24,856 nucleotides of DNA from a virus, in IMG/VR virus record IMGVR_UViG_3300032224_000632, positions 1-24,856 of that record, one strand, 5' to 3'. Below are positions 462-14,564 of the stretch, one piece after another. The notes under the pieces are model-generated. The model was not told where the DNA came from. It was given only the letters and a program-made list of their open reading frames with translations, and searched no databases. Position 1 is the first letter of the stretch. Every line of letters begins with the position of its first letter. Made by a program: the position numbers and the translations under genes.

Positions 462-1160
462 ATGATTATAGGTGTGTGCGGTTTTATTGGTTCTGGCAAA
501 GATACTATTGCCGATTATCTAACAAATTTCCACGGTTTTAGAAGAGAAAGTTTTGCAAATTCACTTAAGGATGCTGTAAGCCACGTATTTGGGTGGGACA
601 GAACTATGCTTGAGGGTCGTACTAAAATGGCCCGTGAATGGCGAGAACAAGTTGATCCTTGGTGGAGTGAACGCTTAGGAATGCCACACTTAACACCACG
701 TTGGGTACTGCAATATTGGGGCACAGAGGTTTGTCGCAAAAGTTTTCACGATGATATTTGGATAGCCGCATTAGAAAACAAACTACGCAACAGTCAAGAC
801 GATATTGTTATTAGTGACTGTCGTTTCCCCAACGAAATTAAATCAATCAAAGATGCAGGTGGGATTGTTGTTCGTGTTGTGCGTGGTCCAGAACCAGAAT
901 GGTATGATTGGGCTGTGAGTGCAAATGCAGGAGAACGTGGTAATTTTACCTGGGCTACTAGTAAAACAAAATTAGAAAAAGCTGGAATACACGCCAGTGA
1001 AACTGCTTGGGTTGGCACTAAATTTGATGCTGTATTGGACAATAACGGCAGTATTGATGACTTGTTTGCACAAGTTAAAGATCTGGTACAAGATCACCCT
1101 GCTTCCAAAGAATCCCTTCCTTATGTAGTAAACGCTGACAGTTCGCACATACTGTCTTAA
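462..1160 (+). CDS. gp1: Deoxynucleoside monophosphate kinase (T4 gp1-like)
   Basis: Phosphorylates dNMPs to dNDPs in the cytoplasm to feed phage DNA synthesis. The 232-residue length is close to that of T4 gp1. A P-loop GFIGSGKDT occupies residues 7-15, directly after the first beta strand (MIIGVC), and ISDCRFPNE later in the protein fits the nucleotide-kinase core of this family. I chose ATG 462 over the in-frame ATG 441 because a strong AGGAGG lies at 452-457 and because the promoter at 412-440 would start the RNA after 441. The last 86 bases overlap the antisense HNH gene, so the two are convergent. Having its own early-type promoter fits an enzyme needed before late genes, although it sits beside tail genes. 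Confidence 0.9.
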   Translation: MIIGVCGFIGSGKDTIADYLTNFHGFRRESFANSLKDAVSHVFGWDRTMLEGRTKMAREWREQVDPWWSERLGMPHLTPRWVLQYWGTEVCRKSFHDDIWIAALENKLRNSQDDIVISDCRFPNEIKSIKDAGGIVVRVVRGPEPEWYDWAVSANAGERGNFTWATSKTKLEKAGIHASETAWVGTKFDAVLDNNGSIDDLFAQVKDLVQDHPASKESLPYVVNADSSHILS

Positions 1161-1416
1161 GATTAGTAGGACGGGAATTATTTAGATTCCCGTCAATATG
1201 AAACACATTGAATTGTTCTTTGTGTTTACTTTTGTACCCACACTTCTCACACTGATCCTTTTGGCGGTAACCGTCTAAGTACCACTTGGGAAAACCATGG
1301 GCAACTCCCCCATGACGTAGACAAGTTTCACACTTTTTTCTAAAAAAAGTTTTATTGTCTTTTTTATAGTTAATTGCGGCTGGTCTTAGCCCGCAAACAC
1401 ACATTGGTCTAGTCAT
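1075..1416 (-). CDS. HNH homing-type endonuclease with two zinc ribbons
   Basis: A 113-residue protein starting MTRPMC. Cysteines C6/C8 and C29/C32 form one likely zinc site; C56-x2-C59 and C90-x2-C93 form the second, flanking an HNH-like core with FHIDGNLNN (H73, D75) and N85. This matches small free-standing HNH nucleases of T4-like marine phages, which cut DNA and can spread to sister genomes; activity here is inferred. The frame is open to an ATG at 1494, but MTRP is the family's usual start, and a late-type promoter (GGTAAATA, 1428-1421) ends five bases before ATG 1416. There is no Shine-Dalgarno sequence. It runs antisense to the kinase tail and diverges from the sheath gene. Confidence 0.75.
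   Translation of the reverse strand: MTRPMCVCGLRPAAINYKKDNKTFFRKKCETCLRHGGVAHGFPKWYLDGYRQKDQCEKCGYKSKHKEQFNVFHIDGNLNNSRPTNLKTVCANCQRLLHKEGILWKQGDLVPDL
1170..1194. other. Nine-base-pair hairpin just after the kinase stop
   Basis: GACGGGAAT (1170-1178) pairs with ATTCCCGTC (1186-1194) around a seven-base loop. It lies ten bases past the kinase stop but also inside the HNH reading frame (minus strand), where it codes for the HNH-core segment. No T run follows on either strand, so a rho-independent terminator is unlikely; it may stabilise the kinase mRNA 3' end or slow HNH translation. Confidence 0.4.
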
Positions 1417-1420
1417 ACTG

Positions 1421-1428
1421 TATTTACC
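1421..1428 (-). promoter_or_regulatory. Late-type promoter for HNH gene
   Basis: GGTAAATA read on the minus strand, with CAGT and then ATG directly after it. It has the TAAATA core of the T4 late motif, and the predicted start point falls on the AUG itself. Confidence 0.45.
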
Positions 1429-1483
1429 TAACCTTTTAGGTACCTTTTTTGGTGTTATAATGCCTGTTATTTTATCAAAATAC

Positions 1484-1491
1484 ACTAAATA
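1484..1491 (+). promoter_or_regulatory. Late promoter for tail sheath gene
   Basis: ACTAAATA, a variant of the T4 late motif TATAAATA. With the usual spacing the RNA starts near 1497, leaving a leader of about 28 bases with AGGAGAG at 1511-1517 before ATG 1525. The motif is also part of a short palindrome (CTAAAT, AC, ATTTAG). Confidence 0.6.
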
Positions 1492-1524
1492 CATTTAGAT
1501 AAGAATCTTAGGAGAGACCATACA

Positions 1525-4500
1525 ATGGCTACATTATCATCACCAGGCGTATCAGTAACAGTTATCGATGAAAGTTTCTATACGCCAGCGGCCCCAGGAA
1601 CAGTACCTTTGGTTATTGTTGCGTCCGCTGAAAACAAACAAAATGGAGCGGGTACAGGGATTGCCCCAGGTACACTAAAAGCAAATGCTGGCAAAGTTTG
1701 GTTACTAACAAGCCAAAAAGATTTGTCAGATACTTTTGGTACACCCGTATTTAAAACAGATGCAAACAACAATCCAATTCACGCTGGTGAACAAAACGAG
1801 TATGGTCTTCAAGCCGCATACAGTTTACTAGGTGTTAGCAATCGTGCTTATGTTGTTCGTGCAGACGTTAACGTAAACGATTTGAATGCTGCCGCGGCAG
1901 CTCCAAAAGCTGATCCAGATAATGGCACGTATTGGCTAGACACAGCAAATACATCATGGGGTGTATTTGAATGGAACGGATCTCCAAGAACTGCAACAAA
2001 TGGTCAAACATTTACTAACAAAACACTAATTGTAATTACAGAACAAAGCAAAGTTGTAAATTACAGTGGATCAAATTTTGCTCCAAAAGGTAGCATTGGT
2101 GCAATTGGCGATTATGCTATTGTAGCATTAGCAGATTTAAACACAGCTTACAAAGACGCAGACAAATTATACTTTAAAAACCGTACAGGTTCTTGGGTAC
2201 AAGTTGGTACTAGTGCATGGGCAAGTAGCTGGCCAACAGCCACTGGCACAGTGGTAAATCCAGCAATTACTCAAGGTCATGATTATACAATTAATGGCAC
2301 AACAATTACAGCATCTGGAACAACACTACAATCATTAGTTGATCAAATTAATGGTAACACACCATTGCAAACCGCAGGTATAACTGCTGCCAAAGTTAAT
2401 GGTAAATTAGAATTGTATTCAGCAACTGCTGACATTGTAACAACTGGTACACATTGGGCCGTTGTTGGTTTAACTACGCAAACTTATTCTTTGCCAGCTT
2501 TGTCAATTGCTAGACATACACAAGTTCCACAATGGAAAAATGCAGGAACAGGCCAAACTGCTCGCCCAACAGGTAGCGTTTGGATTAAGAGTACAGAACC
2601 AAATGACGGTGCAAGATGGAGAACTAAGCGTTATAACAGCGCAACTGATACATTTGAATCAGTATCCGCTCCATTGTATGCTACCGGTCAATCTGCAATT
2701 GCCGCATTAGATCCTACAGGTGGTGGTGATAAAATTGCCGCTGGTGCATTATTTGTTAAAACAAATGAAGACGAAGGAACAACACCAGACGCTAGTTTTA
2801 GAATTTTTAGAAAATCAGCTGTTGGGTATACAACAATTAAATCAGCAAAAATTAACACACAATTTACTGCTGGAGTGTATACATTTAGCATTAAAGAAAC
2901 TTTAGTTGGACAGGATACATTTAGTAGTGCTGTTCAAATTTCATTTACAGCAACACACGCATCAAGCGATGCAGACTTGTTTGCAAGTGCAATTAATAGC
3001 GCAGGTTTAGTAAACATTGAAGCTGAAGTTGATTCACAAAATAGAATTAATATCAGCCACAAATTGGGCGGTGACTTCCTACTTCAAGATGTTACAACAA
3101 ACTATGCAATGACAGCCGCAGGTTTTAGTGGTTACAATTCAATCACAGAACAAGGTACACAAAACTTATATGATGCTGCCGATGGTGTAGCACATAAATT
3201 TTTAGCAAGTTTGTGGGAGCCATTACGCTATACAGCAAGTTCTATTAGCCCAAGCACACTAACAGCTGATGGTAAATTGTGGTACAGTAGCGTTGTTGAT
3301 GAAGTAGATATTATGGTTCATAACGGAAGTCGTTGGGTTGGATATCTAGCATCAACAAGTCCTTTCTATGACGCTGATCCTACTAGACAAACAGATCCAA
3401 ACGGTCCTATTGTTAGCGCAACAGTTCCATTACTACAAAGCGATGGTACAGCACTAATGAATGGTGATATTTGGATTGACACAAGCGACATTGAAAACTA
3501 CCCATTGATTTACAAGTTTGATGCTAACAAGCCAAACACACCAATTGCAAATCGTTGGACACTAGTTAACAATGCAGATCAAACAACAGAAGATGGCGTA
3601 TTATTCCATGATGCACGTTGGGGTGTTGCTGGTAGTAGCGTACAACCAGCAAGCATTGTTGACTTGTTATCAAGCAATTACTTAGATCCAGATGCTCCAG
3701 ATCCTGCACTATATCCAAAGGGTATGTTGTTATGGAATCTACGTCGTTCAGGATTTAACGTTAAGAAATTCCACAGAAATTATGTTGACCTAAATGAAGA
3801 TAATTTACGTGCAGCCAATCATGAAAGTATGGCCAACTACTATCCACATCGTTGGGTAAGTGAAGCCGCTAATCAAGAAGACGGTAGCGGAACATTTGGT
3901 CGTAAAGCACAACGTAAAGTTGTTGTTCAAGCATTACAAGCAACAGTTAACGCTAACCAACAAATTCGTGATGAAGAAGCAAGAGTATTCAACTTAATTG
4001 CAACTCCTGGATATCCAGAGCTAATTGGTGAAATGATTAGCTTGAACTACGATAGAGGCTTAACAGCATTTGTTGTTGCAGATACTCCAGCACGTTTAAC
4101 ACCAGATGCAACAAGTTTAAGCAACTGGGGTAACAACGTAGCATTGGCTCTTGAAGACAATGACTTAGGTGCTGCCAGCTTTGATGAGTATATGGCTATG
4201 TTCTATCCATGGGGTTATACAAGTGATAACTTAGGTAATAACGTAGTTGTTCCACCAAGCCACATGATGTTACGTACTATTGCTCTAAGCGACAACGTTT
4301 CATATCCATGGTTTGCACCAGCAGGTACACGTCGTGGCGGTATTACTAACGCAACAGCAGTTGGTTATATTGACAGCACAACAGGCGAATTTAATGCAGT
4401 TGCATTGAACACTGGACAACGTGATACATTGTATGATGTTAAAGTTAACCCAATTACATTCTTAACAGGTGTTGGTTTAGTTAACTATGGACAAAAAACT

Positions 4501-4846: not shown

Positions 4847-4854
4847 AATAAATA
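4847..4854 (+). promoter_or_regulatory. Late promoter for tail tube gene
   Basis: AATAAATA lies five bases after the sheath stop. The RNA would start near 4860, just ahead of a GGAG ribosome site and ATG 4876, so tube can be made apart from sheath. Confidence 0.6.
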
Positions 4855-4875
4855 TCAATAACGGAGCATAAGAAT

Positions 4876-5502
4876 ATGGCAATCGCAACATTAAGTAAAT
4901 TTACAGTACCGTTGGCAAGTGATGCTAGTGCGTCAGCACAAGGCATGCTAATGCCTAAGTTAAAATATCGCTTTAGAGTGATGTTTCAAAACTTAGGTGT
5001 AAGCACACCAACTACTGAACTAACAAAGCAAGTTCAAACAGCGGCTCGTCCACAAGTTCAATTTGCTAACCAAGTTATTGAAATCTATAACAGTAAAATC
5101 AACTATGCAGGTAAGCCAACATGGCAACCACTAAGCATTGTATTACGTGATGACGTTACTGGTGCAGTGAGTAAATTAGTTGGTGAACAGCTACAGAAAC
5201 AGTTTGACTTTTTTGAACAAAGCTCTGCGGCATCTGGCGTAGACTACAAGTTTACAATGGCCATTGAAATGTTAGATGGCGGTAATGGCGCTAATACTCC
5301 AACAGTATTAGAAACATGGCAATGTTTTGGTTGCTACATTACTCAAGCTAACTATCAGTCATTGGGCTACGGTGAACAAGGTCCAGCAACAATTGATATT
5401 CAAATTCAACCAGATAATTGTATCCAAAGCCCACAAGGCACTGGTATTGGTACAGCAATTGGTAGAACAATTAATACACTTGCTACTGGCGGCGGTAAGT
5501 AA
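4876..5502 (+). CDS. gp19: Tail tube protein (gp19-like)
   Basis: Subunit of the inner tail tube through which DNA passes. The 208 residues compare with 163 in T4. The order of elements fits the family: an N-terminal RFRVMFQNLG strand, the ARPQVQFANQVIEIYNSK segment, the TWQPLSIVLRDDV strand, then a C-terminal pair of strands around CFGCYITQANYQSLGYGEQG and IDIQIQPDNC. It directly follows the sheath gene, as in T4. A GGAG ribosome site stands nine bases before ATG 4876 and a strong terminator follows eight bases after the stop, so this is a one-gene unit when driven from its own late promoter. Confidence 0.92.
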   Translation: MAIATLSKFTVPLASDASASAQGMLMPKLKYRFRVMFQNLGVSTPTTELTKQVQTAARPQVQFANQVIEIYNSKINYAGKPTWQPLSIVLRDDVTGAVSKLVGEQLQKQFDFFEQSSAASGVDYKFTMAIEMLDGGNGANTPTVLETWQCFGCYITQANYQSLGYGEQGPATIDIQIQPDNCIQSPQGTGIGTAIGRTINTLATGGGK

Positions 5503-5509
5503 TACAACA

Positions 5510-5535
5510 AAAAAAGGCTGGCAACAGCCTTTTTT
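5510..5535 (+). terminator. Rho-independent terminator after tail tube gene
   Basis: AAAAAAGGCTG (5510-5520) pairs perfectly with CAGCCTTTTTT (5525-5535) around a GCAA tetraloop (GNRA type). The flanking A and T runs let it work in both directions. No minus-strand gene ends nearby, so the plus direction matters. Confidence 0.88.
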
Positions 5536-5571: not shown

Positions 5572-5579
5572 TATAAATA
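5572..5579 (+). promoter_or_regulatory. Late promoter (exact TATAAATA) abutting a start codon
   Basis: TATAAATA matches the T4 late consensus exactly. Only ATGT separates it from ATG 5584. By T4 spacing the RNA starts at about 5584-5585, that is on the AUG, so the message would be leaderless. There is no ribosome site upstream. Confidence 0.75.
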
Positions 5580-5583
5580 ATGT

Positions 5584-6633
5584 ATGACCAGTAAATCAAA
5601 CGGCTTTTTAGATCAATTAATAAATGGTGTTGGCAATCCTAAAGGAACATTGGGATCTTGGCAACACGCTAGTCGCACCTTTGAAGATGATTATTTTAGG
5701 CTTGCTCCAAAGGCTAAGTTTTTATATCATGTATTTTTTGACATTAACACTAGTGCGTTAAAAACTCTTAATTTAAAATATCAAAGTCAAAATGAATTAG
5801 GCTTGTTGGTAAAGGGTGTAGACTTACCTAAATTTACATTAAAAACAGCAACACTTAATCAATACAATAGAAAGAAAGTTGTTACAATGGATCACGACTT
5901 TCAACCTATCAATATTAAATTCCATGATGATAGAGCGCATCTTATAAACACATTGTGGCAAAACTATTATAGCTATTATTTTGCAGACCCAAGCAGTGCT
6001 CAGTTTGCAGGTGCATACTCAAGAAATGCTATGAGATCATCAGATTTTATTAGAAACAAATATGGTTTAGACAACAACAGTTCTATACCATTTTTTAATT
6101 CAATTACAATATATCAACTTAACAATCGTGAATATGTAAGTTATACGTTGGTCAATCCTGTAATTACAGCTTTTAGTCATGACCAACCACAGGCAAGTGA
6201 TCAAGGTAGTGCTGGTGCAGAAAACAATATGACCATAGCTTATGAAGCAGTTGCATATGACATTGGGTACACAGCATCAGGTGCAGTCAAAGGTTTTGCA
6301 GTTGATCATTACGATAAAATGCCTAGCCCATTAAGTGCGGCAGGTGGCGGCACATCAAGTTTATTTGGCCCAGGTGGTGTTGTTTCAGGTGTGGCAAATA
6401 CCTTAAGCAATATTGAAAGAGGCAACATTGTTGGAGCCGCAATTACAGCAGTTAATACGTATCAAAACGCTAAGAGTTTAACAAACGCTGGATTAAAGCA
6501 AGAGGGCAATGCTATACTAACAGCTGGAGCAATAGCAGTTGCCGCGGCAGGTTTGAGTGGAATTAAAAATATTGTATTCCCGTCTGCTGGCACAGGCAAC
6601 ACAACAACAAATGCCACTCAAATTGATTTTTAA
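5584..6633 (+). CDS. Tail-tube-fold structural protein (gp54/gp48-like)
   Basis: A 349-residue protein whose middle carries the tail-tube pattern: FLYHVFFDIN, then LVKGVDLPKF, an NQYNRKK segment, FQPINIKFHDD and, near residue 185, a strand pair ending in YTLVNPVITAF. It therefore looks like a paralogue of the tube protein. T4 baseplate-tube junction proteins gp54 (320 aa) and gp48 (364 aa) have this fold and similar length, so tail-tube initiator or cap is the best guess; the exact match is not certain. The C-terminus (residues 260-345) is Gly/Ala-rich. ATG 5584 is the only possible ATG start near the N-terminus, since an in-frame stop lies one codon upstream, and it has no Shine-Dalgarno sequence. 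Confidence 0.6.
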   Translation: MTSKSNGFLDQLINGVGNPKGTLGSWQHASRTFEDDYFRLAPKAKFLYHVFFDINTSALKTLNLKYQSQNELGLLVKGVDLPKFTLKTATLNQYNRKKVVTMDHDFQPINIKFHDDRAHLINTLWQNYYSYYFADPSSAQFAGAYSRNAMRSSDFIRNKYGLDNNSSIPFFNSITIYQLNNREYVSYTLVNPVITAFSHDQPQASDQGSAGAENNMTIAYEAVAYDIGYTASGAVKGFAVDHYDKMPSPLSAAGGGTSSLFGPGGVVSGVANTLSNIERGNIVGAAITAVNTYQNAKSLTNAGLKQEGNAILTAGAIAVAAAGLSGIKNIVFPSAGTGNTTTNATQIDF

Positions 6634-7011: not shown

Positions 7012-7445
7012 GCCGATTCGCACGTGGCAAATACATACTCAAAAACCCAGAAAAATATATAGGAAACAAAACTCCTACATATAGATCAAGCTGGGAGTGG
7101 AGTTTTATGAATACTTGCGACACACACCCAAGCATACAACGTTGGGCTAGCGAAGCAATTTCAATTCCCTACAGAGATCCACTAACTAATAGACAAACAA
7201 TATATGTACCAGATTTTTTTATACAATATGTAGATAAAACTGGTAAAATGTTTGTAGAACTTATTGAAGTCAAACCCAGTAATCAAGCTACCTTAGAAAA
7301 CGTAGGTAAAAGCAAATATAATCAAGCCCAATTTGTTAAAAATCAAGCTAAGTGGAGTGCCGCTAATGCTTGGTGCAGAAAACAAGGTATACGCTTTAGA
7401 GTCCTAAGTGAAAAAGATTTATTCCATCAGGGCGGAGTTAGATAA
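7008..7445 (+). CDS. gp4: Head completion protein (gp4-like, nuclease fold)
   Basis: In T4, gp4 (also called gp50/65) finishes the filled head before tail joining and resembles PD-(D/E)xK nucleases. This 145-residue protein has nearly the T4 length. It shows KNPEKYIGNKTPTYRSSWE, then the presumed active-site residues E30, D69 (YVPDFF) and E87-x-K89 (EVK), followed by a helix with NQAKWSAANAWC. All four catalytic-type residues are present, so cleavage activity is possible. The start overlaps the preceding stop by four bases and has no separate ribosome site. The gene ends eight bases before the presumed start of gp16. Confidence 0.85.
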   Translation: MSRFARGKYILKNPEKYIGNKTPTYRSSWEWSFMNTCDTHPSIQRWASEAISIPYRDPLTNRQTIYVPDFFIQYVDKTGKMFVELIEVKPSNQATLENVGKSKYNQAQFVKNQAKWSAANAWCRKQGIRFRVLSEKDLFHQGGVR

Positions 7446-7448
7446 GTA
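7441..7448 (+). promoter_or_regulatory. Weak late-promoter-like motif before gp16
   Basis: GATAAGTA has two mismatches to TATAAATA. It spans the gp4 stop and lies six bases before ATG 7454, the same spacing as at 11737-11744. Sequence support is weak; the spacing match is the main reason to list it. Confidence 0.25.
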
Positions 7449-7453
7449 TTGCT

Positions 7454-7928
7454 ATGACTAAAAAAACTTGAAGAAATTTTAAATTTACCAGAAAACAAGA
7501 AAATTGTTAAGGATACAGATAAACTTGTTACTGCTAAACCAGAACCTTTCTTAAGAGATATGGCTGAATTTGATAAAATATCAGCCGCATTGCCACAAGT
7601 TAAAGGTTTAGGTGATATTAGCGATAACGAGTTTGATGCACTGGCTCAACGTGCCACAGATGCTTACGATGACTTGATGGATCTAGGCATGAACGTAGAA
7701 GCACGTTATAGCGGACGAATTTTTGAAGTAGCAGGCGGCATGCTAAAAAATGCTATTGATGCTAAAGCCGCAAAAATAGACAAAAAACTTAAGATGATTG
7801 AACTACAGCTTAAGAAGCAAAAGTTGGACCAGGAAACTAATGAAGATACTGGAATCAACATTTCAGGGGAAGGATATGTGGTTTCAGACCGCAATAGCCT
7901 ACTTGAAAAACTTAAGAATATGAAATAA
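7454..7928 (+). CDS. gp16: Small terminase subunit (gp16-like) with apparent frameshift
   Basis: Recognises phage DNA and regulates the large terminase during packaging. From ATG 7560 the frame gives 122 residues with LMDLGMNVEARY, then a long basic helix (AKIDKKLKMIELQLKKQKL), typical of gp16 in marine T4-like phages. That frame stays open upstream to 7458, but without an ATG. ATG 7454 lies in another frame, reads MTKKT and stops at 7471. Removing one A from the seven-A run at 7460-7466 joins the two into a 157-residue protein starting MTKKLEEILNLPENKK, close to T4 gp16 (164 aa). So there is a sequencing or natural indel, or a programmed slip. ATG 7560 is a possible internal start but has only a weak AGAG before it. 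Confidence 0.75.
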
Positions 7929-10107: not shown

Positions 10108-10135
10108 AAAAGCGACCTCTAGGGTCGCTTTTTTT
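10108..10135 (+). terminator. Rho-independent terminator before gp17
   Basis: AAAAGCGACC (10108-10117) pairs with GGTCGCTTTT (10123-10132) around TCTAG, within a run of seven T. The late promoter of gp17 begins two bases later. Confidence 0.88.
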
Positions 10136-10136
10136 A

Positions 10137-10144
10137 TGTAAATA
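10137..10144 (+). promoter_or_regulatory. Late-type promoter abutting the gp17 start
   Basis: TGTAAATA differs from TATAAATA at one base. ACGT and then ATG 10149 follow, so the RNA should begin on or next to the AUG. No Shine-Dalgarno sequence is present; the terminator T run is immediately upstream. Confidence 0.55.
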
Positions 10145-10148
10145 ACGT

Positions 10149-11741
10149 ATGGCTAAAAGTTTAGATGGCGTCCTAACTAAAAAGGCGCACACCAAAGAAA
10201 AGTTCAGTGAAGAACAAATAGAGTCCCTGTTGCGTTGTAGTGACATTGAAACAGGGTATCACTATTTCTGTCAAACGTATTTCTATATACAACATCCTGT
10301 TAAAGGCAAACTGTTGTTTGAACCTTTTGAATATCAAAAAGGTTTATTAGATGCATATCACAATCATAGATTTAATGTTAACATGCTTCCACGACAAATG
10401 GGCAAGACAACCTGTGCGGCTGGATATTTGCTTTGGTATGCTATGTTTCACCCAGATCAAACTATTTTAATTGCCGCACACAAATACACAGGTTCACAAG
10501 AAATTATGCAACGTATACGTTACGCATACGAGTTATGCCCTGATTTTATACGTGCAGGTGTTGTTAACTATAACAAAGGTTCAATGGAGTTTGATAATGG
10601 ATCAAGAATTGTATCGGCTACTACAACTGGTAATACCGGTCGTGGTATGTCAATTTCCCTACTGTATTGCGATGAGTTTGCATTCGTACAACCTAATATC
10701 GCAGATGAATTTTGGACGTCAATAAGTCCAACACTAGCAACTGGTGGACGGGCAATTATCACGTCAACACCTAACAGTGACGAAGATACATTTGCTAATA
10801 TTTGGAAAGATGCTAACAAAAAGTTTGACGAATATGGTAATGAAAATTCTGGCGGTGTTGGTCTTAATGGTTTCTTTCCGTTTACATGTAAGTGGAGTGA
10901 ACACCCTGATAGAGATGATGAGTGGGCCAAACTAGAACAAGGACGCATTGGTGAAGAACGCTTCCGTCGTGAGTATGGGTGTGAGTTCTTAATTTATGAT
11001 GAAACCCTAGTAAGCAGTATTAAACTTTCAGAACTTGAGGGACGTGAACCCATATTTAAAATGGGACAAACACGCTGGTATTCTAAACCGAGAAATGATA
11101 ATTTATATTTGATTAGTTTAGACCCAAGTTTAGGCACTGGCGGGGACTATAGTGCTATTGAAGTATTTGAGTTACCTTCCTTTAGACAGGTAGCAGAGTG
11201 GCATCATAACTTAACCCCTATACAAGGTCAAATTAAAATATTAAAAGAAATACTGCAATACCTAGCAGATAATATGGAAGGTTATACTAATAACATTTAT
11301 TGGAGTATTGAAAACAATACTGTAGGTGAAGCAGGGTTAGTATGTATTAAGGATTTAGGCGAAGAACAATTTGCTGGCCAAATGATTAGTGAACCCATAC
11401 GTAAGGGGCATGTACGCAAATTCCGTAAAGGATTTAATACTACACATGGTAGTAAAATCGCAGCCTGTGCTAGATTAAAGCACTTGATTGAGTCAGGTAA
11501 GATGGAATTAAACAGCAAAACGTTAATATCAGAATTAAAAACTTTCATAGCAACAGGCTTTAGTTTCAAAGCAAAAAACGGGCAACATGACGATTTAGTA
11601 GCAAGTTTGCTACTTATTATACGAATGAGTACCCTAGTAGCTGACTGGGATCCTAGAGTGTTTGAAAGTCTCAGCGGGGTACATTCTGAGGAAGATTTTG
11701 AAGCCCCATTACCCATTTTTGTTTCCAGCACTTTAAGCTAA
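10149..11741 (+). CDS. gp17: Large terminase subunit, ATPase and nuclease (gp17-like)
   Basis: Motor that drives DNA into the prohead and cuts it. The ATPase half has Walker A RQMGKT (residues 82-87) and Walker B LLYCDE (171-176, catalytic E176), with a coupling motif near ITSTPN. The nuclease half shows the first active-site Asp in SLDPSLGTGGDYS (D325) and the final pair in QHDDLVASLLL (D481/D482). At 530 residues it is a little shorter than T4 gp17 (610), as is usual for marine relatives. It lies three genes away from gp16 rather than next to it. Its stop codon is part of the late promoter of the following gene. Confidence 0.96.
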   Translation: MAKSLDGVLTKKAHTKEKFSEEQIESLLRCSDIETGYHYFCQTYFYIQHPVKGKLLFEPFEYQKGLLDAYHNHRFNVNMLPRQMGKTTCAAGYLLWYAMFHPDQTILIAAHKYTGSQEIMQRIRYAYELCPDFIRAGVVNYNKGSMEFDNGSRIVSATTTGNTGRGMSISLLYCDEFAFVQPNIADEFWTSISPTLATGGRAIITSTPNSDEDTFANIWKDANKKFDEYGNENSGGVGLNGFFPFTCKWSEHPDRDDEWAKLEQGRIGEERFRREYGCEFLIYDETLVSSIKLSELEGREPIFKMGQTRWYSKPRNDNLYLISLDPSLGTGGDYSAIEVFELPSFRQVAEWHHNLTPIQGQIKILKEILQYLADNMEGYTNNIYWSIENNTVGEAGLVCIKDLGEEQFAGQMISEPIRKGHVRKFRKGFNTTHGSKIAACARLKHLIESGKMELNSKTLISELKTFIATGFSFKAKNGQHDDLVASLLLIIRMSTLVADWDPRVFESLSGVHSEEDFEAPLPIFVSSTLS

Positions 11742-11744
11742 ATA
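11737..11744 (+). promoter_or_regulatory. Late-type promoter overlapping the gp17 stop
   Basis: GCTAAATA includes the gp17 TAA. The last A is six bases before ATG 11750, so by T4 spacing (-6) the A of AUG is +1. No Shine-Dalgarno sequence precedes the ATG. Confidence 0.5.
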
Positions 11745-11749
11745 TTACT

Positions 11750-14482
11750 ATGAATGCCAATTTTGAAAAAATATCTATAGATCTAGTTAATCAGTTAAGC
11801 ACTAGATTTCCTTCCCTACGTAAGGAAACAGACGATGCTAAACCTGTTGATGGAAAGAAACTCACAGACAAAGATGTTAGAAAAGTAAGTTTTGACTTTA
11901 CTGACAAACGTAACGGTAAAAAACTTACTAATGTATCTGTTAGTTTAAATGCATCTTCAGGAACTCCTGGTATGTCTGTTCTATGGAATAAGAATCCTAA
12001 AGATGGAGATTGGCTAGAATTTTTAGAAGAATTAGGCACTTTTGCAAAAGATCACGGACTAAACTTTGATTTGCAAAATCCATCACAATCAAATTTAGAT
12101 ACAAGAGATCCTATCGGAGATGAGCAAATGACAGAATCAAGACTTTTTGGAACTAGTAAGACTAGTTACCAAGACATGGGGGAGGCGCAGATTATTGTAC
12201 GTCATACCCAACCAGTAAACTACAATGCCCCTAACGGTAGGACACAACACATTGATGCAATCTTTATTGAAAACTCACAAGGTGAAAGATTCCGTTATCC
12301 AGTTAAACATTTAAATGGCGCAAGAGCATTGGCACAACACGTATCCCATGGTGGTACTCCATATGATGCTATTGGACAGCACGTTATCAGTTTAAGTGAA
12401 GAATTAAGCAAATTACGTTTGTTTAAAAACTATGTTGAACGTAGTCCAGTAATTAGTGAAAACATGGGTAGCATACACAGTAAGGTTGTTGAACGTATTG
12501 ATCAAGTTAAAAAAGAAGTTCACAGTTTACAAAATTCAAATTACTACAGTGAATTTGCAGAAGGCTTTACAGCAAAAGAAGCAAGAGAAATTCCAGAAGA
12601 TATTTTAAATGATTGGATTGATAGACTAACTGTACGTAGCTTCAATGAAGAATTAAAAACAGTTTTCCCATTCATTTATAATTTAATTGATGAATCAGAT
12701 GTGCCAGTTAAAGAATTAAATCCAGATGATTTATTAGACGAAGCTGGCAAAACACACGGAATTAAAAATGATTGGCACAAGCGTTATAAAGAACATAAAC
12801 AACGACATGATGATTATGTTAATAGTGGTGATCACGACAATGCTGACAAAGCTGGCAAGTTAGCAAGACAAGCAGCCAAACATCACGAAAATGAAACAGG
12901 AGAAAAGATTTCTGGTTCAGACGAATTTGATATGTACGAAGACCGTACTGAAGTCAAAGACAAAGATGGTAAAGTTGTTAGTTGGAAAGATGAAGGTGAA
13001 TGGAAGAAATCACAAAATAAAGATGGTCGTGGCAAAGTTACTAACTTGAGTGATAAAGCTCGTCGTGAGACAGAGAAGTTAGACAAGAAGGACGAAAGTC
13101 TTGACCCATTAAGTAGATTTGAAAGTTTCATGGACAGTTTAGTTCAAGAAGACGATGACTTATTAACTGGTGATGAAGAACAAAGTGCAGAAGCAATGAA
13201 CAAGTTAAAAGACTTGTTTAATCAAAACGTACCATTAGGCACAGATGCAAGTAATGTTAAAAGTAGTTTACAAAACATTGTAGATGACGACAAACTAACA
13301 AAAGCATTTGATGCACTAGCAGAATTAGGTTTAGATGAGATGGATGCTCGTCCAATCATTGCACAATTCTTAAAATCACATGATAAAGAGAACGGTACAG
13401 ACTTTGCTACAAAGTTAGGCTTTGATGCAGAAGATGGTAAGGCTCCGGCGGCACCAGCAACACCTCCACCAGAGGCGGCTGCTCCAGAAGCTCCCCCGGC
13501 AGAAGCACCTCCAGAAGCTCCCCCGGCAGAAGCACCTCCAGCAGAAGAACCAGCTCCAGCGGCACCAGTTGCTGAAGATCCAGAAAATGATCAACTACAA
13601 AACTCAGTGAAGAAGCAAGGCGCGGCTGAGAAGTTATTTGGCGACATCAAAGAACGTGTAAGCGGTTTCTTTAATAGCAACGAAGGCACAATGACTATTG
13701 GTGAGGAAGGCTTTGTTACTAAGATGTGCAAAGAGCTTAAAGAAAAATACAGTATTGAACCTGGCACACCAAAAGCAGACAAGTTTGACCAAATGGTTGA
13801 ACGTACTTGCTACAAAGTAATGGAAAAATACAAACAACATAATGCTGTTCAACAACAACACAATCGTATGCTTGAACTAGCAGGATTGCCAACAAACGAA
13901 GGTGTTTGGGATAGTATTAAAGGCGCAGTAGGAGGTGCAATCGACGGAGCTAAAGCAGGATGGTCTGCTGGCGAAACTCCTAAAGTACCAACAACCCCAG
14001 AAGAAATTAAAGCGTTCCAACAAGCAAACGGATTAACAGCTGATGGCATTGTTGGACCAAAAACGTTAGCGGCTATGAAGGCAAAGGGCATTGCTCCAAA
14101 TCAATCTGCAACACCGTCACCAAAAGCCCCAGGTGCAAATATCCCAAATCCACCAGCAAGCGGAACGACAAACACAAGTTCTAACACAAGTGTTTCTGGA
14201 ACTTTAAAAATGGGCAAAGCTGATGGTCCAATTACATATAATGGTAAGACTGTTAACCCAGGAGATCCACAATATGCGGCGGCGGAACAAGCATTGTTAC
14301 AAAGTCAAAAGCGGGCTCAGCAATACAAATATCCAATGAGATCAAATATGCAACCTACACAAGGTGGTCAAATATCTCAAGGTGCCAGTCAAGCAATGGA
14401 TCAAGATTTTGAAGAAAGTCGAAGTGTAGGATACAGTGAGGATCAAACACTAGCTCGTATTATTGAGTTATCTCGTAGATAA
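11750..14482 (+). CDS. Large virion-type protein with peptidoglycan-binding motif
   Basis: A 910-residue modular protein. Residues 1-330 hold a mixed-fold region with the conserved-looking VRHTQPVNYNAPNGRTQHID and a long helical part. Residues 340-480 are highly charged and likely disordered. Residues 565-606 form an Ala/Pro/Glu linker with two perfect 27-base repeats. Around 747-780, EIKAFQQANGLTADGIVG followed by PKTLAAM fits the PG_binding_1 family, which binds peptidoglycan. The C-terminus ends in a short helix (LARIIELSRR). I do not recognise the whole protein. A cell-wall-binding module suggests a virion part that meets the host envelope, but no lytic catalytic domain is visible. It starts without a ribosome site at a late promoter and ends before a 144-base control region. 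Confidence 0.75.
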   Translation: MNANFEKISIDLVNQLSTRFPSLRKETDDAKPVDGKKLTDKDVRKVSFDFTDKRNGKKLTNVSVSLNASSGTPGMSVLWNKNPKDGDWLEFLEELGTFAKDHGLNFDLQNPSQSNLDTRDPIGDEQMTESRLFGTSKTSYQDMGEAQIIVRHTQPVNYNAPNGRTQHIDAIFIENSQGERFRYPVKHLNGARALAQHVSHGGTPYDAIGQHVISLSEELSKLRLFKNYVERSPVISENMGSIHSKVVERIDQVKKEVHSLQNSNYYSEFAEGFTAKEAREIPEDILNDWIDRLTVRSFNEELKTVFPFIYNLIDESDVPVKELNPDDLLDEAGKTHGIKNDWHKRYKEHKQRHDDYVNSGDHDNADKAGKLARQAAKHHENETGEKISGSDEFDMYEDRTEVKDKDGKVVSWKDEGEWKKSQNKDGRGKVTNLSDKARRETEKLDKKDESLDPLSRFESFMDSLVQEDDDLLTGDEEQSAEAMNKLKDLFNQNVPLGTDASNVKSSLQNIVDDDKLTKAFDALAELGLDEMDARPIIAQFLKSHDKENGTDFATKLGFDAEDGKAPAAPATPPPEAAAPEAPPAEAPPEAPPAEAPPAEEPAPAAPVAEDPENDQLQNSVKKQGAAEKLFGDIKERVSGFFNSNEGTMTIGEEGFVTKMCKELKEKYSIEPGTPKADKFDQMVERTCYKVMEKYKQHNAVQQQHNRMLELAGLPTNEGVWDSIKGAVGGAIDGAKAGWSAGETPKVPTTPEEIKAFQQANGLTADGIVGPKTLAAMKAKGIAPNQSATPSPKAPGANIPNPPASGTTNTSSNTSVSGTLKMGKADGPITYNGKTVNPGDPQYAAAEQALLQSQKRAQQYKYPMRSNMQPTQGGQISQGASQAMDQDFEESRSVGYSEDQTLARIIELSRR
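13484..13537 (+). repeat. Two perfect 27-base tandem repeats
   Basis: Identical copies at 13484-13510 and 13511-13537 encode PEAPPAEAP. The stretch is richer in G+C than its surroundings. Confidence 0.9.
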
Positions 14483-14518: not shown

Positions 14519-14547
14519 TTGCGAACATAAATAAAAGCGTATACAAT
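14519..14547 (+). promoter_or_regulatory. Sigma70-like promoter ahead of gp32
   Basis: TTGCGA (14519-14524), a 17-base spacer and TACAAT (14542-14547). The start would be near 14554, inside the 3' arm of the terminator at 14533-14564, so its RNA could not fold that hairpin. The late motif lies within the spacer. Confidence 0.45.
14526..14533 (+). promoter_or_regulatory. Late promoter ahead of gp32
   Basis: CATAAATA. Start expected near 14539, within the 5' arm of the terminator hairpin, giving a leader of about 88 bases before ATG 14627. The 144-base gap 14483-14626 holds only this, the sigma70-like promoter, the terminator and the ribosome site. Confidence 0.6.
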
Positions 14548-14564
14548 AACATGTATGCGCTTTT
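14533..14564 (+). terminator. Rho-independent terminator after the 910-aa gene
   Basis: AAAAGCGTATAC (14533-14544) pairs with GTATGCGCTTTT (14553-14564), twelve pairs with one G-U, loop of eight, T run at 14561-14565. It ends the late transcript from the packaging block. Confidence 0.8.

Follow-up and report, generated by a model that had tools for sequence, protein, structure and literature searches.

In bacteriophage T4, the late promoter octamer TATAAATA occupies positions -13 to -6, with its first T at -13 (late-transcription review PMC2988020). Short distances between a promoter element and a start codon have been described in bacteria, where -10-adjacent genes have the -10 element 6-7 bp (its first T about 10-12 bp) before the start codon (PMC12340547, PMC3160421). 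In large phages, leaderless mRNAs are found among the middle and late transcripts of the Thermus phage phiYS40, during whose infection IF2 rises and IF3 falls (review PMC3594737). The heptamer ATAAATA has also been noted before structural genes of phages CBB and GAP32, without the close spacing described below (PMC5259590).

The stretch of DNA analyzed here (the window) is a virus record of 24,856 bases from an uncultured giant T4-like phage, and the closest isolate to its terminase is the Pseudomonas giant phage PA5oct (53% identity). Based on sequence comparison, a subset of the late genes is very probably leaderless or nearly so, by means of a T4-type promoter located 4-6 nt before the start codon. 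Four genes in the window have this layout, and a variant motif may make up a fifth site.

5572..5579, plus strand: late promoter octamer TATAAATA of the tube-fold gene (from sequence; spacing kept in 44 of 44 distinct relatives)
5580..5583, plus strand: 4-nt spacer ATGT of the tube-fold gene (4-6 nt long in relatives, final base always a pyrimidine)
5584..6633, plus strand: tube-fold gene (tail tube family), start codon ATG at 5584-5586; PHROG tail tube families, best E 4.9e-13; predicted leaderless
10139..10144, plus strand: TAAATA of gp17, followed by the 4-nt spacer ACGT and ATG at 10149
10149..11741, plus strand: gp17, terminase large subunit; PHROG terminase E 3e-128, Pfam Terminase_6N; predicted leaderless
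11739..11744, plus strand: TAAATA of the 910-aa gene, followed by the 5-nt spacer TTACT and ATG at 11750 (68 relatives with the layout)
11750..14482, plus strand: gene for a 910-aa virion-type protein; PHROG virion structural E 1e-11, peptidoglycan-binding domain PF01471; predicted leaderless
1426..1421, minus strand: TAAATA of the HNH gene, followed by the 4-nt spacer CAGT and ATG at 1416-1414 (46 relatives with the layout)
1075..1416, minus strand: HNH-family gene, 113 aa, conserved start MTRPMCVCG; weak HNH matches; predicted leaderless
7443..7456, plus strand: variant TAAGTA, 5 nt before ATG 7454 of the MTKKLEE gene (from sequence; possible fifth site)

The positions of motif and ATG that the earlier note gave at 5572-5586, along with the recurrences it saw at gp17, at the HNH gene and at 11737-11752, were all correct on checking against the sequence. 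The full octamer TATAAATA is present only at the tube gene, the other three sites having the TAAATA core, and at the 910-aa gene the TAA of this core doubles as the gp17 stop codon (11739-11741). TAAATA occurs 18 times in the window, both strands counted, and in four cases an ATG starting an ORF of at least 100 aa follows after 4-6 nt. For each of the 14 other hexamers made of these letters, 0-1 such placements were found, though most are commoner in the window than TAAATA. Counted per gene, there were 4 sites versus 0.3 expected (Poisson p = 2e-4), where the expectation, here and for the other phages below, is the mean of 14 letter-permuted hexamers. None of the four genes has a ribosome site, as had been claimed, but since TAAATA occupies the exact place of a Shine-Dalgarno sequence (SD), its absence is not independent evidence.

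The MTKKLEE gene has relatives in which TAAATA lies 4 or 8 nt ahead of the same start. In the window (7441-7928), the ORF called at 7560 resembles the 3' part of a gene starting at ATG 7454 (MTKK...), whose frame is broken in an A-run just past the start; intact copies occur in two related loci (L109 and L003), and the break could be an assembly error or a genuine change. Matches for the HNH gene were weak (PHROG E 2e-4; Pfam 19.0 bits, with a cut-off of 21.4). Its mechanically called ORF (1075-1494, minus strand) opens at 1494, and conservation begins only from the ATG at 1416, so automated start calling would put 26 spurious residues on the protein. A duplicated, purine-rich motif of the AAAAGG(GG) type lies directly upstream of the HNH promoter (window ~1428-1460, minus strand) in nearly all relatives shown, and could serve to bind an activator or be targeted by the HNH protein itself.

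Two further genes in the window have TAAATA at a longer distance and serve as a contrast.

1486..1527, plus strand: gp18, TAAATA followed by a 33-nt gap with AGGAG and ATG at 1525
4849..4878, plus strand: gp19, TAAATA followed by a 21-nt gap with GGAG and ATG at 4876

The SD that the earlier note had assigned to the genes with longer leaders is borne out at gp18 and gp19; at gp32 an AAGGAG is present but makes a weaker example. In this case, the nearest TAAATA (14528) is 93 nt upstream and adjoins a terminator-like hairpin (window 14528-14564), and for that reason may not be the gp32 promoter.

Relatives were obtained by scanning viral contigs with the gp17 and tube proteins, which gave 155 loci, to which three long related contigs were added, and wherever TAAATA lay 3-8 nt before an ATG, the protein encoded there was taken for clustering. 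The four largest clusters were the four window genes, with 77 loci for tube, 68 for the 910-aa gene, 64 for gp17 and 46 for HNH, the counts for tube and gp17 being partly by design because these proteins were used to fetch the loci, and the other families being unselected. A fifth family (MPRLSLYRPE, 25 loci) and a sixth (MTKKLEE, 10 loci) followed. Overall, the spacing of the layout is kept in more than 100 related contigs, and the sequence of the spacer varies freely among relatives of the four families. Loss of this spacing in close relatives had been named as a finding that would count against leaderless transcripts; for tube, the 4-6-nt spacer was found in all 44 distinct upstream regions, and for gp17 in 46 of 54. 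All 46 gp17 regions with the layout are without SD and all eight regions lacking it have an SD-like motif (a weak call in one of them, L077), with no mixed combination. The position of the motif rules out an SD in the first group but does not require one in the second. In a gp17 tree that included two isolate outgroups, the two states require at least six changes, five of which are forced by supported branches. As gp17 is SD-led in PA5oct, Phosso and CBB, the leaderless type probably arose within this clade.

Most distances from motif to start in the related loci are either 4-7 or about 15-24 nt, and values of 8-14 nt are uncommon. An SD is present in the leader in 80 of the 143 clusters of the longer class, whose 15-19-nt peak is partly due to a single family with a promoter that forms a divergent pair with that of the MPRLSLYRPE gene. 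A leader of intermediate length would have no room for an SD and yet keep the AUG away from the 5' end, and the scarcity of such leaders is a prediction of the leaderless reading. At the MPRLSLYRPE loci (L049, L054, L020 and others), the paired late promoters nearly overlap, with TATTTA a few bases before TAAATA; the gene on one side has a 4- or 7-nt spacer and would be leaderless or nearly so, and that on the other is SD-led with a 16-18-nt gap.

The T4 numbering of TATAAATA puts +1 at the sixth base after the octamer, a base that is a purine in 76% of the leadered late promoters of T4. A 5-nt spacer would therefore put +1 on the A of the ATG, and with a 4-nt spacer the strict +1 would be one base inside the AUG, requiring a start one base earlier, on the A. 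The start at the AUG that the earlier note had derived from the six-base rule of T4 thus agrees with the 5-nt spacing, and three of the four window sites, with 4 nt, need a shift of one base. Bacterial RNA polymerase favours a purine at +1 that is preceded by a pyrimidine at -1. With a 5-nt spacer, the base before the ATG was a pyrimidine in 186 of 186 sites and in 39 of 39 N-terminal clusters, a Y(-1)R(+1) initiator signature, versus 51% at SD-led ATGs of the same contigs (n = 558; p = 1e-11, an indicative value as the sequences counted are partly related). The same was true of every distinct 5-nt spacer for tube (23/23), the 910-aa gene (14/14), gp17 (28/28), HNH (15/15) and a nucleotidyltransferase-like family (6/6), and in the five best-sampled families the other spacer positions were far more mixed than -1. 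At 4-nt sites, a pyrimidine was found at -1 in 9/9 for tube, 7/9 for the 910-aa gene, 5/7 for gp17 and 12/14 for HNH. Start codons 4-6 nt from the motif were ATG in 311 cases versus GTG or TTG in nine, an excess that a need for a 5'-terminal AUG would also account for. Late promoters of the clade that have leaders showed a weak start-site signature (A 0.46 at position 5), and RNA structure at the predicted 5' ends of the tube and gp17 mRNAs was nothing unusual (z 1.6 and 0.1).

Intrinsic terminators were located directly upstream of two of the promoters.

5510..5535, plus strand: intrinsic terminator, a hairpin after gp19 and ahead of the tube-fold gene (fold -14.9 kcal/mol, z -4.5)
10108..10138, plus strand: intrinsic terminator with its T-run adjoining the gp17 promoter (terminator scan; fold z -5.4)

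The stem of the first is symmetric, and the terminator scan places it on the minus strand. In 63 of 64 gp17 relatives, a T-run is at most 6 nt from the motif. With terminators in these positions, the tube gene and gp17 are unlikely to rely on a leadered read-through transcript. No terminator was found between gp17 and the 910-aa gene.

A homologue of the late sigma factor gp55 (phrog_12791, phrog_234) was identified in all seven large contigs of the clade, with E down to 1e-81, and also in PA5oct and the Pelagibacter phage HTVC008M; the window is a fragment and not expected to hold the gene. Host sigma-70 promoters were considered in place of late ones and rejected, as sigma-70-like matches numbered 39 versus 43 expected from shuffles. 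A search of genome contigs for terminase relatives that could point to a host returned none. Ribosomal protein bS21, of possible interest for late translation, is phage-encoded in several of these phages: in G001 (one clade contig; G001:C1:10787-10945), HTVC008M (91237-91392), PA5oct (170985-171143), Mosig, Phosso and Atu_ph07. It was searched for and absent in T4, Syn9 and P-SSM2. As a translation partner of the leaderless layout bS21 was discarded, because PA5oct has bS21 without the layout and the trait is thus not tracked. Phage-encoded IF3 was absent from the clade contigs and found only in Phosso, Atu_ph07 and CBB.

The placement of TAAATA near ATGs was compared with the controls across phages, and enrichment was seen in the window, in the clade and in HTVC008M. 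In the clade contigs G001, G002 and G003 there were 17 versus 3.9, 7 versus 2.0 and 6 versus 1.2 sites at 4-6 nt, respectively. Such sites were not enriched in T4, Syn9 or CBB (0 each), in PA5oct (1 versus 3.1) or in P-SSM2 (2 versus 1.0). HTVC008M had 11 versus 1.3 (p = 1e-7), and Mosig, another Pelagibacter phage, 5 versus 2.2 expected (p = 0.07). In the first 50 kb of HTVC008M (NC_020484), TAAATA lies exactly 5 nt before nine of 62 annotated starts, including those of the DNA end protector, head closure, tube cap and baseplate wedge genes, and a distance of 18-21 nt goes with SD-led genes that have GGAG leaders. Since its start codons were placed by others, HTVC008M provides independent support for the spacing grammar.

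The leaderless late mRNA claimed in the earlier note is therefore supported by conserved spacing, enrichment, the -1 pyrimidine, the ATG starts, the reciprocal SD use at gp17, the gp55 homologue of the clade and the terminators; the actual 5' end, the use of gp55 and translation through recognition of a 5'-terminal AUG are what we infer from these patterns in the DNA. In the proposed mechanism, a gp55-like sigma factor on host RNA polymerase would read the TAAATA -10 element 4-6 nt before the start codon, and the polymerase would start on the A of the AUG, leaving the mRNA leaderless or within one or two bases of it. Ribosomes would then bind the 5'-terminal AUG without an SD. Other late genes would use the same promoter at least 15 nt upstream, together with an SD.

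The start could instead vary between about the fifth and the seventh base past the motif, giving ultra-short leaders of 1-3 nt. The 4-nt spacers, which need a shifted start, are consistent with this, as are the spacers of 6-7 nt (tube at 6, MPRLSLYRPE at 7), in which position 5 is a purine and pyrimidines come after it, suggesting a start 2-3 nt before the AUG; sites of this kind may carry 2-3-nt leaders. At the dominant 5-nt spacing, however, no purine occurs at position 5, as if selection acted against starts just before the AUG, and ultra-short leaders as the general explanation seem rather unlikely. For the 910-aa gene by itself, the motif might be no promoter at all, with translation coupled to gp17 and ribosomes restarting 8 nt downstream of its stop. 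The position of that stop inside the motif and the lack of a terminator between the two genes would fit coupling, but many relatives keep the spacing with a different sequence before the motif. Coupling would also leave the tube gene and gp17, both behind terminators, unexplained and would not demand a pyrimidine at -1, and we regard it as very improbable.

Initiation at A/U-rich sites without an SD is a known general phenomenon, which lends some plausibility to UAAAUA being an A/U-rich translation element on a transcript from further upstream, so that the genes would be SD-less and not leaderless. Against this are the terminators just ahead of the gp17 and tube promoters, the use of the motif together with a more downstream SD at other late genes, the rule of a pyrimidine at -1, and the availability of a gp55 homologue for a T4-type motif, all of which make a translation element hard to credit. 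Finally, translation could begin at codons downstream of the wrongly annotated ATGs, each with a ribosome site of its own, as the variable N-termini of some families might suggest. This is extremely unlikely given that gp17 (MxKSLDGVL) and HNH (M(T)RPxC) align from this very residue in dozens of relatives, and that the public HTVC008M annotation places nine starts at the same spacing.

If the leaderless reading holds, it predicts base-exact 5' ends for named structural genes in more than 100 environmental contigs and one cultured phage. The grammar of TAAATA, 4-5 nt ending in a pyrimidine and ATG also corrects start-codon calls, as for the HNH gene of the window. Furthermore, gp17 constitutes a natural experiment, in which leaderless and SD-led forms swap between close relatives, on the value of leaderless translation to a late gene. 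A tentative and more speculative proposal is that T4-type phages made part of the late set leaderless at least twice independently, in this clade and in HTVC008M, by moving the gp55 promoter up to the start codon, perhaps for SD-independent translation as the host initiation machinery changes late in infection.

The layout resembles the late promoters of T4 gp55-RNA polymerase (PMC2988020, PMC7892883) in its TAAATA -10-like element with no requirement for a sigma-70 -35, in the structural genes downstream and in the gp55 homologue of the clade. Unlike these phages, T4 has no sites 4-8 nt from a start, its sites lying ~23-29 nt upstream with SD leaders. The short distance from -10 to start, the missing SD and the leaderless reading are shared with the -10-adjacent genes of Deinococcus-Thermus (PMC12340547) and the TA-led genes of bacteria (PMC3160421), but those use the host housekeeping -10 (TANNNT), whereas here the motif is that of a viral late sigma factor and only some late phage genes have it. 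HTVC008M (NC_020484) has the same 5-nt TAAATA spacing alongside SD-led genes at 18-21 nt; unlike the clade of the window, it belongs to the Kyanoviridae, whose cyanophages Syn9 and P-SSM2 are without enrichment, and its layout likely arose independently. Our literature search, with most subscription papers outside its reach, turned up no description of this layout at T4-type late promoters, HTVC008M included. The middle and late transcripts of phiYS40 (review PMC3594737) are similar as leaderless mRNAs late in the infection of a large phage, but phage and host are unrelated and, as far as that review says, no T4-type motif is involved. Leaderless late phage mRNA is thus already known from phiYS40, and what appears to be new here is its layout with a T4-type late promoter.
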